NCBI GenBank assembly: GCA_028823105.1
Contig: JAPKCC010000009.1
Coordinates: forward strand, 1-51,299
Reading direction: 5' to 3'
DNA from: Phycisphaerales bacterium
Lineage (GTDB): Bacteria > Planctomycetota > Phycisphaerae > Phycisphaerales > SM1A02
DNA: 51,299 nt
Shown here: piece by piece, positions 27,149 to 34,509 of the stretch
Layout of the letters: each line of letters opens with the position of its first letter
Position numbering within the stretch: position 1 is the stretch's first letter
Notes under the pieces: model-generated
Database searches by the model: none
What the model saw: the letters and a program-made list of their open reading frames with translations, nothing else
What the model was told of the DNA's origin: nothing
Made by a program: the position numbers and the translations under genes

Positions 27149-27640
27149 TTACGCGTTCGGATCGACGCCTTCGCTGCCCGGTGCGCCAGGTTTAAAATGC
27201 TCGAACATTCCGGGAAGCCGTTCGATCGGGATGCACCATCCCCCGCGATGATCATCGAAGAAAACCCCGAAGATCCCAGCCGACTGCAGCCCGGCGATGT
27301 GCCTGATCGCGGATTGGACGGGAAACGAGAGGATCGAAGGCTTGCCCACGATCGGGAGAATACCCTTCGCCAGCGCGTACTCGTGCGCTCTTCCCTTGGC
27401 GGTAAACGCCATCACGAATGGACGCTTGTCGATCACCACGGCGGCAGGCCGGACCGCGGGAAACTCACCTTGCCCGACGAAATACCATTTGGGCAAGGCG
27501 AAGGCGGCGCTCCAGAGTTCGTTCAAGTTCGCATTGTCGGTCCGACCGGCCAGTGCGAGTTCATCCATCCGGCTCGGAAGCAGGTCCGCCGCGAGTCGCT
27601 CTTGCTCGGTCGAAGGTGTGGGTGGCGTTTCTTCGCTCAT
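27149..27640 (-). CDS. Hypothetical protein (SseB-like fold possible)
   Basis: 163-aa ORF with 4-bp overlap to the upstream LysM gene; stop abuts the convergent AKR stop. Confidence 0.7.
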   Translation of the reverse strand: MSEETPPTPSTEQERLAADLLPSRMDELALAGRTDNANLNELWSAAFALPKWYFVGQGEFPAVRPAAVVIDKRPFVMAFTAKGRAHEYALAKGILPIVGKPSILSFPVQSAIRHIAGLQSAGIFGVFFDDHRGGWCIPIERLPGMFEHFKPGAPGSEGVDPNA

Positions 27641-29085
27641 GGGATCACGATTTCCATGCCCACCTTCAGATTCCCGGGATCATCACCGATGATCGCCAGG
27701 TTGGCATCGTGGATCTCTTGCCAGCGAGATGCTTTTCCAAAGTACTCCAACGAGATATCGCTGAGCGTCTCCCCGGACTGGACGGTGTGGATGATCTCAC
27801 CGCCCGCCGCGGGATTCGCTCGTCTGATCGTCGAAGTTGAATTCTTCGGCGGCAGCTTGATGATCTGGCCGACCTGCAGACGGAGCGGATCCACGGTCGG
27901 ATTCGCCATCGCAATCAGTGATTGTTTCTGCGGGTCGCCGAACCAGCTCACGGCAATACCTTCGAAGCTATCGCCGGATTGGATCGTATAGGGGGTATAG
28001 GCGTCGGCTGGGAGGCCCGCCGCGGACGGTGCTTCTGCCACCACGGGCTCGTCGTCAGGCGTATCCACCACCGTACCTGGCCTCGCCATCAACTCTCCGC
28101 GAAGTCTGGTCGCGATCCACGTGGCGTGTTCGCGATCGAATCCGCCGACGATCTGGCCTCGGTTCTGAATCGCGATTCGAAGAGTCGGCGTCGAGATGAC
28201 TTCGCCATCGACGACCCAGGCGACGGTACCGCCGACCAGATTGAACGTCGACTCTCGAACTTCATCGACGGCGTCGGCCTCAAGCAGATACGCGACCTCC
28301 GGTCTGCCTTCCGCGTCTTCTCTGACGGTGGCGCCCGCGATTCGACCGTCGAGACGCAGCCCTCCCACCGAGTCATCACGAACCAGCAGGAATCGTCGCT
28401 CGGAATCCCCCGATCGGCGGGTTCCGACGACCAGTCCTTCAACCTCGCCGGATCCTTGAATCATGTTCCAGGGAGCGAGTGGAAGCCACAGGGTGCCTTC
28501 GGTGCCAGTGGGTCGTTCGTTGCCGACGGCAGTCTCAAGATTGGTCCGGGCCACGCTCTGATCAATCCGTCCATCATCCGAGGGGACCGCTGAGAAAAGA
28601 GATACACCTGTCTCGCGGACGCCGAGGCTCGGCCCGTAGGCTCTTGACAGTCCGGTTGGTGCGACGATCGCTTCCGCCTCCGGGGGGTTCGTCGCATCTG
28701 TCGCATCCGAGCCGGCACTATGCTCGTTCGTGCCTGGACCACGCTCCGTATCGATGTCGGGCGCTTCCGAAGATTCTTTTTCGGAACTCGTCGGGGTTGG
28801 ATCAACTCCGTCGAGCTGATCGGCCTTCACCGTCGGGGCGGCGACGATCGGGACAGAGGGTGTCGGTTCTGGTTCGCGGACGACCGGAGGCGTCGATGGC
28901 TCCGTCGTGATTGTGTCGAGCGCGGAGGACTCCGGCATTCGTGCGACCTCGTCCACGGCTGGCTCCGCTGGCTTCTCCAGCCGAGCGTAGTACAAGCCCA
29001 CTGCAACCATCGCTATCACGATGACCGCCACGGTAAATCGAACGCCACTGGACATGGTTCGTCCTCCAGGTTCGGTCGATGCCAT
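27637..29085 (-). CDS. Membrane-anchored protein with SecD P1-head-like domain and two C-terminal LysM domains
   Basis: TM anchor VRFTVAVIVIAMVAVGLYYA; FLLVRDDSVGGLRLDGRIAGATVREDAEGRPEVAYLLEA...GTVAWVVDGEVISTPTLRIAIQNRGQIVGGFDREHATWIATRLRGEL resembles SecD; YTIQSGDSFEGIAVSWFG and HTVQSGETLSDISLEYFG LysM motifs. Confidence 0.85.
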   Translation of the reverse strand: MASTEPGGRTMSSGVRFTVAVIVIAMVAVGLYYARLEKPAEPAVDEVARMPESSALDTITTEPSTPPVVREPEPTPSVPIVAAPTVKADQLDGVDPTPTSSEKESSEAPDIDTERGPGTNEHSAGSDATDATNPPEAEAIVAPTGLSRAYGPSLGVRETGVSLFSAVPSDDGRIDQSVARTNLETAVGNERPTGTEGTLWLPLAPWNMIQGSGEVEGLVVGTRRSGDSERRFLLVRDDSVGGLRLDGRIAGATVREDAEGRPEVAYLLEADAVDEVRESTFNLVGGTVAWVVDGEVISTPTLRIAIQNRGQIVGGFDREHATWIATRLRGELMARPGTVVDTPDDEPVVAEAPSAAGLPADAYTPYTIQSGDSFEGIAVSWFGDPQKQSLIAMANPTVDPLRLQVGQIIKLPPKNSTSTIRRANPAAGGEIIHTVQSGETLSDISLEYFGKASRWQEIHDANLAIIGDDPGNLKVGMEIVIP

Positions 29086-29179: not shown

Positions 29180-32100
29180 TCAACCCGTGGTCAGCGACGT
29201 GGTCCGGGTCGAGGTTGCCGACTCGCTATCGGTGCTGGGTCCAGACCCGGTCTTGCGGGACCAGGTCAGCGGCGCGGCGATCACCACGGACGAGTACGTC
29301 GCGGCGATCAGGCCCACAAAGAATGTGAACGCAAACGGGCGGATCCCCGTTCCGCCGAGTGAATAGAGCACCATCGCCGAAGTGATCGTGGTACCACTGG
29401 TCATGATCGTTCGGCTGAACGTCTGGTTGATGGAGTTGTTCACCACATCAAGCGATGCATAACTCAGCTTTCCGCGGTTCTCGCGGATGCGGTCGAGAAT
29501 CACGATCGTATCGTTGAGCGAATAGCCGACGATGGTGAGCAATCCGGCGACCACGTTGAGATCGATTCGAATTTCGTCGAGGACCCGGACCCCGGCAATG
29601 CTCGTCTCGCCGATGACCAGACTCAACGCAATCGCTCCGAGGCAGATGCTGATGTTGAAGAGCAACGCGGAAATCGCGCAGACCGAGTAACGGAGCGAGC
29701 CGAACCGGAACCAGATGTAGACCAGCATGCCGAGCAGGCTGAGAATCACCGCCACGATGGCGCTGGCGGCGAGATTCTGCGCTACCTTCGGGGAGAAACT
29801 CGACTGATCGAGGCTTGCTTCTCGCGTCAACGCGGCCTGGATGAGTTCATATTCACGCTGCGCCAGCCCACGATCCCAAGTGTCCAACGCGACTTCGAAG
29901 CTGGAGAGCCCGTCGTCGAAGACCATGACCGCGATCGAGGAGAACGTGGAATCGTCCCCTGCGACGCCCGCTTTCTCGAGCCCCACCACTTCCATGTTTC
30001 GTCCGGCGGTATCACTGAAATCTGGCTGATTCCGCATGCGGAGGATCCGCTCGTCGACATCGACGAGCGTGATTGGCGGAACGATTCCGTCGATCACTAC
30101 GGCGACGCCGCCGCGGTACGCATCGACAGGCATCGTGACACCGCTTCGGCCGATCGACTCCCCGAGCGATTTCCGTTCAAGCGGGAAGGTGTGGCTGCTG
30201 TAATCGGGGTCCCCTTCGGCGTCGAAGTGGACCGGTTGGATCACCGCCAGGACGTCGCCAAACTGCTCGACCAATGCATTGACCACGTGGTCGGCGATGT
30301 TCTCATTGTCATCGATGCCCGGCGGGTTGGCGACCTTGACCTGGAAACTTCCCGCCTCGTTGTTCGCGGTCGTGGTCCCGATCGTCAGCACCGTGGCGTT
30401 GGACAACTGGGCGAGGATTCGATCTTCGGGATGCGTGTCGCCGATCTGGTGTACGCGGTCTTCGACCTCGCCGCGGGTGAGAAGCAGACGGCCGGTGAGG
30501 TCACGATCTGTTCCCGCGACCTCCCCGTCCTGCGCCGCCCGAGTGGTCATCTTGACACTGACCCCGCCCCGGAATTCGGTCTCCAGGACGTCGGAACCTC
30601 TCGCAAAGAACAACACCAGCGAGCCAACCGCCAGCACGGTGCTCATCACCAGGAGCGGGCCCCGGAGGGAGACCCAGTTGATCTTGGGTTCAAGGAGACG
30701 ATGGATCGAGGGGAACACGGTGGGAAGCATCGGGAGCGACTTCAGCCTGAACACCTCTGTGCAGATCGCAAAGAGGACTCGGCTGACGAAGAGCGATGTG
30801 AAGAGCGTCGAGAGCACGCCGATCGAAAGCGTGAGGGCGAATCCCTTCACTTCCGTCGCCGCGGTCTGATACAGGATGAAGCAGACGATCAGGTTCGTGA
30901 TATTGCCGTCGAGGATGGCGCTTGCCGCCTTGGCGAAACCAATTCGAATCGAATCGCGAAGGTCTTCACCGTTGTTGATCAGTTCCTCACGGATTCGCTC
31001 GAAGATCAGAACGTTGGCATCCACCGCCATACCCACGGTCAACGCGATACCCGCGAGACCCGGAAGCGTGAAGGTCCCGTCGATCATCGCCATGATTCCG
31101 AAGATCATGACCGCATTGATGAAGAGCGAGATGACCGCGATCAGGCCTGCTCCGAAGTAATAGAGCAGCATGATCACCGCGACGATGACCACCGAGATTG
31201 CGACCGCTCGAAGACCTCGAAGCAGATTGTCCTGGCCGAGCGCCGGTCCCAGAATGCTGGTTGAAATCGGTTCCGGACTGAGACGAGCTTCTAGGCTGCC
31301 CGCCGCGAGCACTCTGATCAAGTAGGTCACTTCGGCCTCGCCGAAGTTGCCTTGAATGATGCCTCTCGAGCCAATGGCGCTGTTGAGATTCGGCGCGGTA
31401 TAGACCTCGCCGTCGAGCACGATGGCCATCGGCTGGTTGATGTTCGGCGAGGTCAGTCGGCGCATCATCGAACCGCCGGCGCTGTCAAGACCGAATGACA
31501 CCGCGGGACGCCCGAGGTCATCGATGGTCTGGCTCGCCTGGCGGATCGCCCAGTTGTCGCCGCTGGTGTGCGTCATGCTCTTCTCGGGCGTGACGTACAA
31601 AAGGATGAATCGAAGACCGTCCTTCTCGTCGGCGACGAGGTTGTATCGCGACTGGAAGTATGCGACGGGATCGGCGATCAGGGCTTCGACCGACTCCGGA
31701 CGATCCTCGTCGGTCCACTGCTTCAGATCGTTGATCGGGAACCATTTGGCTACCGGAGAGTCAGTGCTGTTTGCCCCCCGCTCGGCGAGCTGTTCGCGCA
31801 AAAGCGTGATCGGAACGTCCAACGCCCCGGGTCGGACTGCGATTCGGAATTCGAGCACGCCGGCACCGCGAAGGAGCCGTTTGAGATCCTCGGGATCATC
31901 GAGGCCTGTTCGTTCCGCTTCAAACGCGGCATAGGCCGATGCGAGTGTGGCGATCTGGGCGGCGAGATGCGGAAATTCGAGTTCGAGCTCGGCGAAGGCG
32001 ACGGCCCGATCGCTGGTGGCGGGATCGAGGTTGCCATCCGCATCGCGGAGACGTGGCGTCCCTTCGAGGGCGAGGATGTTGAATAGACGATCGTCTCCGA

Positions 32101-32704
32101 AGGATTGGGAGAGAATCGTGTTCTGAAGTTCCTCAACCGTGATCTCGGCTCTGGCGATTCGATCGAGCAGTCCGTTGACTCGGATTTCGTCGACCGGATC
32201 GCCGGCCTGCGCCTCGGTCAGATCCGCCCGAGCGGCTTTCGCTTGATTCCATGCCGCCTGGAGGCGATCGAGTTCAGCCTTGCGTTTGCTGGTCCCGCCG
32301 TACTTCGCGGAGGCATCACCGGCGTCGAGCGCGGCATCCAGCTTGCTCGGACGAATCCGTGATACCGCCAAGAGCGCGTCGAGCGCATCTCGATAGGTCT
32401 GCTGCAACGCGCGAACCTGATCGTTGGGAAGCGGCATCACGACTTCGATGCGATCTCGTCCGACCGGTTGCATCCCGATGTCGAGAATGCCCTGCGGATT
32501 CACCCGCTGCTTGAGGACATCGATGGTCTGCGCGAGGACTTTGTCAGGCTCGGCCCCCTCGGCGATCTTCACGGAGTAGACCAGGCTGACGCCGCCTTGA
32601 AGATCCTTGCCGAGTCGAATCTTCTTCTGTGGCGGATAGACGGACCAGAGACAGACGCCGACGATCAGGCCGATCAGGACGAGCTTGGGAATAATGTTCT
32701 TCAT
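29180..32704 (-). CDS. secDF: Protein translocase SecD/SecF fusion
   Basis: SecD: LGKDLQGGVSLVYSV, AIVLDGEVYTAPNLNSAIGSRGIIQGNFG, ALTVGMAVDANVLIFERIREE; SecF: YSLNDTIVILDRIREN, NQTFSRTIMTSGTT. Confidence 0.96.
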   Translation of the reverse strand: MKNIIPKLVLIGLIVGVCLWSVYPPQKKIRLGKDLQGGVSLVYSVKIAEGAEPDKVLAQTIDVLKQRVNPQGILDIGMQPVGRDRIEVVMPLPNDQVRALQQTYRDALDALLAVSRIRPSKLDAALDAGDASAKYGGTSKRKAELDRLQAAWNQAKAARADLTEAQAGDPVDEIRVNGLLDRIARAEITVEELQNTILSQSFGDDRLFNILALEGTPRLRDADGNLDPATSDRAVAFAELELEFPHLAAQIATLASAYAAFEAERTGLDDPEDLKRLLRGAGVLEFRIAVRPGALDVPITLLREQLAERGANSTDSPVAKWFPINDLKQWTDEDRPESVEALIADPVAYFQSRYNLVADEKDGLRFILLYVTPEKSMTHTSGDNWAIRQASQTIDDLGRPAVSFGLDSAGGSMMRRLTSPNINQPMAIVLDGEVYTAPNLNSAIGSRGIIQGNFGEAEVTYLIRVLAAGSLEARLSPEPISTSILGPALGQDNLLRGLRAVAISVVIVAVIMLLYYFGAGLIAVISLFINAVMIFGIMAMIDGTFTLPGLAGIALTVGMAVDANVLIFERIREELINNGEDLRDSIRIGFAKAASAILDGNITNLIVCFILYQTAATEVKGFALTLSIGVLSTLFTSLFVSRVLFAICTEVFRLKSLPMLPTVFPSIHRLLEPKINWVSLRGPLLVMSTVLAVGSLVLFFARGSDVLETEFRGGVSVKMTTRAAQDGEVAGTDRDLTGRLLLTRGEVEDRVHQIGDTHPEDRILAQLSNATVLTIGTTTANNEAGSFQVKVANPPGIDDNENIADHVVNALVEQFGDVLAVIQPVHFDAEGDPDYSSHTFPLERKSLGESIGRSGVTMPVDAYRGGVAVVIDGIVPPITLVDVDERILRMRNQPDFSDTAGRNMEVVGLEKAGVAGDDSTFSSIAVMVFDDGLSSFEVALDTWDRGLAQREYELIQAALTREASLDQSSFSPKVAQNLAASAIVAVILSLLGMLVYIWFRFGSLRYSVCAISALLFNISICLGAIALSLVIGETSIAGVRVLDEIRIDLNVVAGLLTIVGYSLNDTIVILDRIRENRGKLSYASLDVVNNSINQTFSRTIMTSGTTITSAMVLYSLGGTGIRPFAFTFFVGLIAATYSSVVIAAPLTWSRKTGSGPSTDSESATSTRTTSLTTG

Positions 32705-32809: not shown

Positions 32810-33244
32810 TCAGGAAGATTCTTCCTCGGGCTCGAGCACCTGCTGGACGGCATCACGAGCGAAGGTCATCCGCGTGTTGCTGCTCTCGTCCACCTTGAGA
32901 AGGATCGTGTCAGGCTTGATCTCGACCACGGCGCCGATGACGCCACCGATGGTTCGAACACGATCGTGCTTCTTCACACTGCTGATGAGCGCCTCTCGCT
33001 TCTTGCGTTCCTTTCGTTGTCCGAAGACGCTGAAGAGGATCATCACCAAGATGAGCGGGAGGAACATGAACATGAGAAGGCTGCTTCCACCTTCGCCGCC
33101 GGCGGCTTCGGTATCTCCACCGGTGGCGCCTTCCGCAGAGGTGGTGCCAGTCCCCTGTCGCCCAAGTGGTGGCGTGGCCTGCCCGAGGGTCAGGAGTGAA
33201 CCATGTGGGGAGGACAGGGAGACGAAGTTGATCGAGTCGATCAT
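32810..33244 (-). CDS. yajC: Preprotein translocase subunit YajC
   Basis: LLMFMFLPLILVMILFSVFGQRKERKKREALISSVKKHDRVRTIGGVIGAVVEI; position upstream of secDF and downstream of tgt. Confidence 0.92.
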   Translation of the reverse strand: MIDSINFVSLSSPHGSLLTLGQATPPLGRQGTGTTSAEGATGGDTEAAGGEGGSSLLMFMFLPLILVMILFSVFGQRKERKKREALISSVKKHDRVRTIGGVIGAVVEIKPDTILLKVDESSNTRMTFARDAVQQVLEPEEESS

Positions 33245-34509
33245 GATTGGGACAGACCTTCCGAGTCGGAATCAGGCCCCGGGCCGTCGCCATTTGACGG
33301 CACGCTCGATGGCCCCCCAAGGTCCGGAAATGGACTTTGAGCGGCATCGAGAACCGGCCAGCGGCCGGCGAGCGAAGACCAACAATCATCCCGGATCACG
33401 GTCCGAATGTCCAGCAGGAGCCGTTGGAAGTGCCGGAGGTTGTGAAGGCTGCAGAGGATCGGGCCGATCATTTCCTTCGCGAAGAAGCAATGGCGGAGAT
33501 AGGCCCGGCTGAAACCGCCGGCACAGGCGGGACAGTCGCAAGATGGATCGATGGGTGAAAGGTCCTCCCGAAACCGGGCGTGCCGGAGTCGGAGCGGCCC
33601 TGTGGAGGTGAAGACCGACGCCATACGCCCGTTTCGGGTCGGTAGGACGCAATCGAACATGTCCACCCCCGCGGCCACGGCCATGACGATATCCCGCTCG
33701 TACCCGACGCCCATGAGGTATCGAGGGCGATCCACGGGAAGCCGCGGCGCTGTGAATTCCACAACTTCTCTGATCTTTTCCGGTCCTTCTCCGACCGCGA
33801 CGCCCCCGATCGCATATCCGGGAAGGTCAAAACCACAGACCCCCTCGATGGACGCGGCTCGAAGATCCAGATCCGTCCCGCCTTGCACGATGCCAAAAAG
33901 CGCCTGCTCGTCCGGACGGGCGTGTGCTTGAATACACCGACCCAGCCAGCGGATCGTCCGTTCGTGCGCCTCTCGGAGTCGTCGCTCCCAGTCACGCGGC
34001 GTAGGGAGCTTCGCTCGCGGGCTTCCCGCGCCATGCTTGGCATGAGGCGATGGCGGGCAATCATCGAAGGCCATGATGATGTCCGCTCCGATGGCGTTCT
34101 GAACCCGCATCGACGACTCAGGACCGAGATGGACCTTTGCCCCGTCGACGAACGATCGGAAGGAAACGCCGTCTTCATCGATCGCATTCATGTCCGACAT
34201 CGAGAACGCCTGATATCCCCCGGAGTCGGTGAGTACCGGACCGTCCCATCTCATGAACTGATGGGTGCCTCGGAATCGTTCGAGAAGTTCGATACCCGGG
34301 CGGATCATGAGGTGATAGGCGTTGTTGAGAATGATCTCCGCCCCGACGCTTCTCACTTGCTCAGGCAGAACGCCCTTCATCGCGGCGGCGGTCGCGACCG
34401 GCATGAACGCCGGCGTGGCGAAGCGGCCATGCGGTGTCTCCACGAAGCCGGCTCGCGCATGATTCGTCGAGCATTCGGACTCGATCGTGAATCGAACGGG
34501 GCCGGTCAC
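33241..34509 (-). CDS. tgt: Queuine tRNA-ribosyltransferase
   Basis: FMPVATAAAMKGVLPEQVRSVGAEIILNNAYHLMIRPG, LTDSGGYQAFSM, YAIGGVAVGE, CDCPACAGGFSRAYLRHCF...LHNLRHF zinc site. Confidence 0.96.
   Translation of the reverse strand: MTGPVRFTIESECSTNHARAGFVETPHGRFATPAFMPVATAAAMKGVLPEQVRSVGAEIILNNAYHLMIRPGIELLERFRGTHQFMRWDGPVLTDSGGYQAFSMSDMNAIDEDGVSFRSFVDGAKVHLGPESSMRVQNAIGADIIMAFDDCPPSPHAKHGAGSPRAKLPTPRDWERRLREAHERTIRWLGRCIQAHARPDEQALFGIVQGGTDLDLRAASIEGVCGFDLPGYAIGGVAVGEGPEKIREVVEFTAPRLPVDRPRYLMGVGYERDIVMAVAAGVDMFDCVLPTRNGRMASVFTSTGPLRLRHARFREDLSPIDPSCDCPACAGGFSRAYLRHCFFAKEMIGPILCSLHNLRHFQRLLLDIRTVIRDDCWSSLAGRWPVLDAAQSPFPDLGGPSSVPSNGDGPGPDSDSEGLSQS

Follow-up and report, generated by a model that had tools for sequence, protein, structure and literature searches.

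Gene organization of the secDF-LysM locus

The analysed window is a 51,299-nt stretch from a Phycisphaerales bacterium (contig JAPKCC010000009.1), and all coordinates below refer to it. Its minus strand carries the gene order tgt-yajC-secDF-LysM: a tRNA-guanine transglycosylase gene (tgt, 33241-34509, minus strand; the name is our own reading of the sequence) lies upstream of yajC (32810-33244, minus; named by its position and by conservation before secDF in related loci), followed by a secDF fusion of 1174 aa (29180-32704, minus) and, directly downstream in the same direction, by an ORF encoding a SecD-type head together with two LysM domains (27637-29085, minus), hereafter the head-LysM protein. 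This ORF has 482 aa as called, while the true start is probably Met11 at position 29055, where conservation within the genus begins and GGAGG stands 7 nt before the ATG. Counted from Met11, the gap to the secDF stop is 124 nt, with no terminator-like site on the gene strand within it; the placement directly downstream of secDF had already been noticed in an initial annotation of this DNA. A further ORF of 163 aa (27149-27640, minus) overlaps the LysM stop by 4 nt; it produced no match in Pfam or NCBIfam, and its homologues were found only in the window's genus (g1) and in g55, at the same position.

The head-LysM protein starts with a single N-terminal transmembrane anchor (aa 13-33, 28987-29049, minus; Kyte-Doolittle 2.17 over 19 residues), whose motif MxSGxR...GxYY is also kept in relatives lacking the head. 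It is followed by an acidic low-complexity linker (aa 37-148, 28642-28977, minus) with 23 D/E against 7 K/R and with P, S, T, A or G at 61 of its 112 positions. After the head come LysM domain 1 (about aa 365-412, 27850-27993, minus) and LysM domain 2 (aa 433-482, 27640-27789, minus), the latter being the best of the two stretches matched by PF01476 (48.1 bits for a cut-off of 20.9, E 1.1e-12 for the protein). Hydropathy, composition and Pfam thus agree with the initial description of an anchor, an acidic linker and two LysM domains around the head. The membrane topology is a prediction, and the LysM pair would be expected to bind peptidoglycan. Neither the P1 base (SecD_1st, PF21760) nor the RND membrane domain (SecD_SecF_C) matched the protein in Pfam, which agrees with the earlier statement that the head sits outside any RND domain, and with 31.8 bits against the SecD equivalog TIGR01129 (cut-off 244.4) the protein is not a whole SecD.

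Identity of the SecD-derived head

The central domain of the head-LysM protein is a genuine SecD P1 head. Its core corresponds to the Pfam family SecDF_P1_head (PF22599; aa 248-332, 28090-28344, minus), scoring 43.8 bits (E 2.7e-11) where the curated cut-off is 27. In a single-sequence phmmer search of the PDB, the P1 domain of Thermus thermophilus SecDF (3AQO) matched aa 234-334 at E 3.8e-4, and the same entry was matched at E 1.5e-8 by a profile built from 16 LysM-heads. A SecD-head profile from this Phycisphaerales family gave 45.7 bits with the real segment, while the best of 2000 shuffles reached 7.4 bits. The P1 head of the neighbouring SecD (SecD aa 386-473, 31286-31549, minus; Pfam match) is 35% identical to the LysM-head over aa 254-336, and the resemblance to the adjacent gene that had been seen by eye is real.

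AlphaFold2 received LysM-heads alone as input, with no SecD rows. The model of the window-clade head (pLDDT 82, pTM 0.82) was compared with 350,542 PDB chains, and the ten best matches were all SecDF or SecD, one of them superposing at 2.3 A over 95 columns, with large rmsd in longer alignments across the base-head hinge. The divergent head of a sister genus (L035 clade), modelled separately (pLDDT 77), likewise matched SecDF/SecD, and at E <= 1e-3 nothing else was matched by either model. Chance resemblance is ruled out by the shuffles, the profile and the fold. The structural comparison with SecDF that the initial annotation had proposed as a check thus came out in favor of its assignment of aa 226-336 (28078-28410, minus) to the P1 head. 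These bounds are too narrow: profile comparison of heads from the window's genus with the longer heads of sister genera aligned them end to end over aa 160-330 (E 7.9e-5) and, since these relatives keep a longer homologous copy, the head extends over about aa 155-335 (28081-28623, minus), as is also consistent with the AlphaFold2 model and its PDB matches. The hairpin motif DGxV...P.(I/L)...(I)..RG.I.G.F is present in the window head as VVDGEVISTPTLRIAIQNRGQIVGGF, and this hairpin (VVDGEV...P.L..AIQNRG...GF) is largely lost in the heads of g7, g14 and g55.

Distribution of the secDF-LysM pair

Comparison of about 60 secDF loci, taken from the family and order to which the window belongs, revealed a LysM-pair protein adjoining secDF downstream on the same strand in 55 of the 56 loci with room for it (52 by the strict rule, plus L036, L037 and L086, in which the LysM frame stays open further 5' and adjacency was thereby hidden). 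The sole locus with no LysM protein after secDF (L052) is from a different family, f6. Families f1, f2, f3 and f4 contain the pair; it is near-universal in the window's own Phycisphaerales family, and three out of four examined sister families show the same pattern. Most of the secDF-linked LysM proteins have just a low-complexity linker ahead of the LysM pair, and the head was found in only four of the 39 sampled genera: g1, g7, g14 and, in a degenerate, barely recognisable form, g55. Within the window's genus it is present in all eight genomes, and it also occurs at every sampled g7 and g14 locus showing the gene. A genome scan detected the full architecture only in the window's genus, represented by Phycisphaerales MAGs that include Phycisphaera sp. 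TMED9 (L122), other matches being LysM-only; a search for viral relatives found none.

Because the pair is near-universal while the head is confined to four genera, the LysM tether is the old and constant part and the head a later addition. Being missing from 35 of the 39 sampled genera with a LysM-secDF pair, the head is dispensable for the general role of the pair. The expectation that relatives with the same secDF neighbourhood would share the architecture consequently holds for the LysM protein and fails for the head in most genera. The earlier reading of the protein as an accessory of the Sec translocon has to be shifted in the same way: the conserved pairing favors a link to the translocon, but the conserved partner of secDF is the LysM tether and not the head.

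Origin of the head

In a SecDF tree of 56 rows, the head genera g1, g55, g7 and g14 formed one group with SH-aLRT 85, short of the 95 mark, and with SH-aLRT 100 for each half of this clade; a single acquisition of the head fits such clustering. The donor lineage can be recognised from a segment of about 100 aa preceding the core head, which in the neighbouring SecD covers aa 282-385 (31550-31861, minus). SecD proteins of this order have the segment, those of outlying families matching at E 4e-19 to 1e-21. One other genome of the class gave at most a marginal match (E 0.003), and the SecDF proteins from 17 more planctomycete genomes gave none. The LysM proteins of the sister genera g7 and g14 carry the segment as well (E 4e-12 to 1e-21), and the donor was therefore a SecD of this lineage, probably the neighbouring secDF gene itself. 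The copies have worn in different ways: in the window's genus similarity to the segment is no longer recognisable and the core is kept (E 7e-12), while the g7/g14 heads have kept the first part and their core is eroded. The simplest account would be that the LysM gene downstream received a SecD head by one duplication and that the copies then wore differently. In the head tree the LysM-heads stand far from SecD, with about 3 changes per site along their branches, and such long branches dominate the tree, which does not name the donor copy; a single clade of LysM-heads was not rejected (p-AU 0.475), nor was it shown.

An origin from generic stand-alone head lipoproteins is disfavored, since the small lipoproteins are without the order-specific segment that the g7/g14 copies carry. 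L100 and L101, two stand-alone heads of greater length, have this segment too and may represent intermediates.

Selection on the head

Among six pairs of genus members, five had a core-head dN/dS of 0.02-0.14 and the most distant one (window-G005) had 0.20; the LysM pair was about as low, and the linker was at 0.25-0.77 in pairs with unsaturated dS. The values are rough because synonymous sites were near saturation in several pairs, while the contrast between the regions was consistent. The head is under purifying selection and is therefore not a neutral spacer. A view of it as a decaying duplicated fragment in a tolerant linker region might draw on its position in the variable linker and on the barely recognisable g55 heads, but we regard it as very improbable, given a core-head dN/dS about at the LysM level and far below that of the linker, a fold predicted with good confidence, and retention of the head in all genus members and at the g7/g14 loci.

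The same results bear on a second alternative, in which the LysM gene follows secDF purely for the sake of expression, with no role in export for either tether or head. Conservation of gene order alone is no proof of function, and the run includes an RNA-modification gene, tgt, that is just as conserved. Against this, the neighbouring pathway itself is the source of the added domain, the domain is kept by purifying selection, and proteins with only a P1 domain are found beside secDF independently in two other families (see below); mere positional hitch-hiking seems unlikely to us.

SecD heads elsewhere in Planctomycetota

Motor-less SecD heads recur in the phylum, for example as lipoproteins (L034, L101-L103, L108). 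One of them is encoded in the window's own genome (L034, contig C156, 8606-9076, plus strand), flanked by aroC and a gene for a short-chain dehydrogenase; it is a lipoprotein of 156 aa made up of a SecD head, and lipoproteins of this type are present in other members of the genus (L105, L106, L116, L117). A 242-aa lipoprotein-like protein with a SecD head was observed in g54, and a second, truncated SecD of 402 aa with TM1 and P1 only lies far from the main secDF in genome G063 (L099, 3055-4263, minus). In two other families, P1-only relatives of SecD are encoded directly upstream of secDF (L139, 5627-6724, minus; L140, 4316-5173, minus), one with TM1 and the P1 base and the other lipoprotein-like; these represent additional, independent heads next to the motor gene. 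A Ser/Thr kinase of the Hanks type, 570 aa long and with a transmembrane segment, from another planctomycete family (L149, 639-2351, plus; PF00069, E 2e-45) has a SecD P1 head as its outer domain (PF22599, E 3.7e-10, aa 467-546), which suggests that the head serves there as a sensor module.

The SecD head is thus a portable extracytoplasmic module, and the LysM-head might be one more case of a SecD-derived fold reused for general binding or sensing, with a peptide or wall fragment as its ligand and with co-expression as its only tie to SecDF. The recurrence of heads on their own, the kinase, for which sensing is the usual reading of an outer domain, and the rapid divergence of the LysM-heads from SecD would all suit such reuse. 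Yet this head arose in the gene adjoining secDF, from an order-specific SecD, within an otherwise nearly invariant pair, and we consider general reuse somewhat unlikely.

Possible role of the head-LysM protein

The role proposed here builds on the observed domain identity, gene order, donor lineage and selection on the head. We tentatively prefer, at a little under an even chance, a membrane-anchored wall tether made together with the Sec motor, which has gained a P1 head of SecD lineage and holds it passively near the SecDF exit, where it holds chains or docks. In this arrangement the anchor would sit in the inner membrane, the linker would cross the periplasm, and the two LysM domains would grip peptidoglycan, while the LysM gene would have gained the head by duplication from a same-lineage SecD, for which the neighbour is the simplest candidate. 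The head would be passive because it is without the proton-driven RND membrane part. Two modes of action may be envisaged: it could be a tethered holdase for emerging polypeptides, or it could dock where SecD's own head docks, so that the translocon is kept at the cell wall. The P1 head of SecD is critical for translocation and moves with the SecDF conformations (PMC9508474); the chaperone SurA is predicted to dock on SecDF at this head (PMC9987972). Both association of the head-LysM protein with SecDF and holding of polypeptides are what we infer for it from these comparisons, and a changed or relaxed binding role would fit as well as docking on SecDF, since the LysM-heads have diverged far and have largely lost the hairpin motif in g7, g14 and g55.

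A bolder version, in which the wall-bound duplicated head acts as a second head of the Sec translocon, both receiving polypeptides at the SecDF exit and pinning the holotranslocon to the wall, appears fairly unlikely. The extra head might also be a regulator that damps SecDF by competing with SecD's own head, either for the P1 base or for chaperones. The absence of the P1 base and the RND part would leave it only action in trans, but the motif is too poorly kept across the clade to suggest an exact mimic, and we regard this role as very improbable.

Returning to the preferred wall tether with a passive head, the gain of the head strengthens, short of proof, the case for a functional link between secDF and the LysM protein, and the coupling of late translocation to a cell-wall scaffold, as put forward in the initial annotation, could be one form of it. 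A tether kept across most of the order and later given the substrate-handling head of the motor suggests that Sec export and the wall are physically linked. This bears on the reception of exported chains beyond SecYEG and on the placement of the translocon relative to peptidoglycan, for which the head-LysM protein offers a natural and testable fusion.

Comparison with known systems

The Escherichia coli envelope protein Kbp (7PVC) has a C-terminal LysM domain in common with the head-LysM protein. Its partner domain is BON and not a SecD head, and to our knowledge it has no link to secDF. The head-less secDF-linked LysM-pair proteins of Phycisphaerales share with the head-LysM protein the gene position, a similar TM motif, an acidic/Pro-rich linker and the C-terminal LysM pair; they differ in having no recognised folded domain between linker and LysM and are usually 200-410 aa long where the start is clear.

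The stand-alone SecD-head proteins and lipoproteins of Planctomycetota resemble the head-LysM protein in having a P1 head without an RND domain, but they are without LysM and, except for L139 and L140, mostly unlinked to secDF. They are of a known kind, because the Pfam family already covers such proteins. No report of a SecD head fused to LysM was found in the literature within limited searching, and the LysM fusion beside secDF is what is new. With the P1 head of SecDF proper (PF22599; T. thermophilus 3AQO, 3AQP and 5YHF, and also 5XAN) the LysM-head shares both the fold and the sequence family, while, instead of standing on a P1 base and an RND domain, it is carried by a single transmembrane anchor and two LysM domains.
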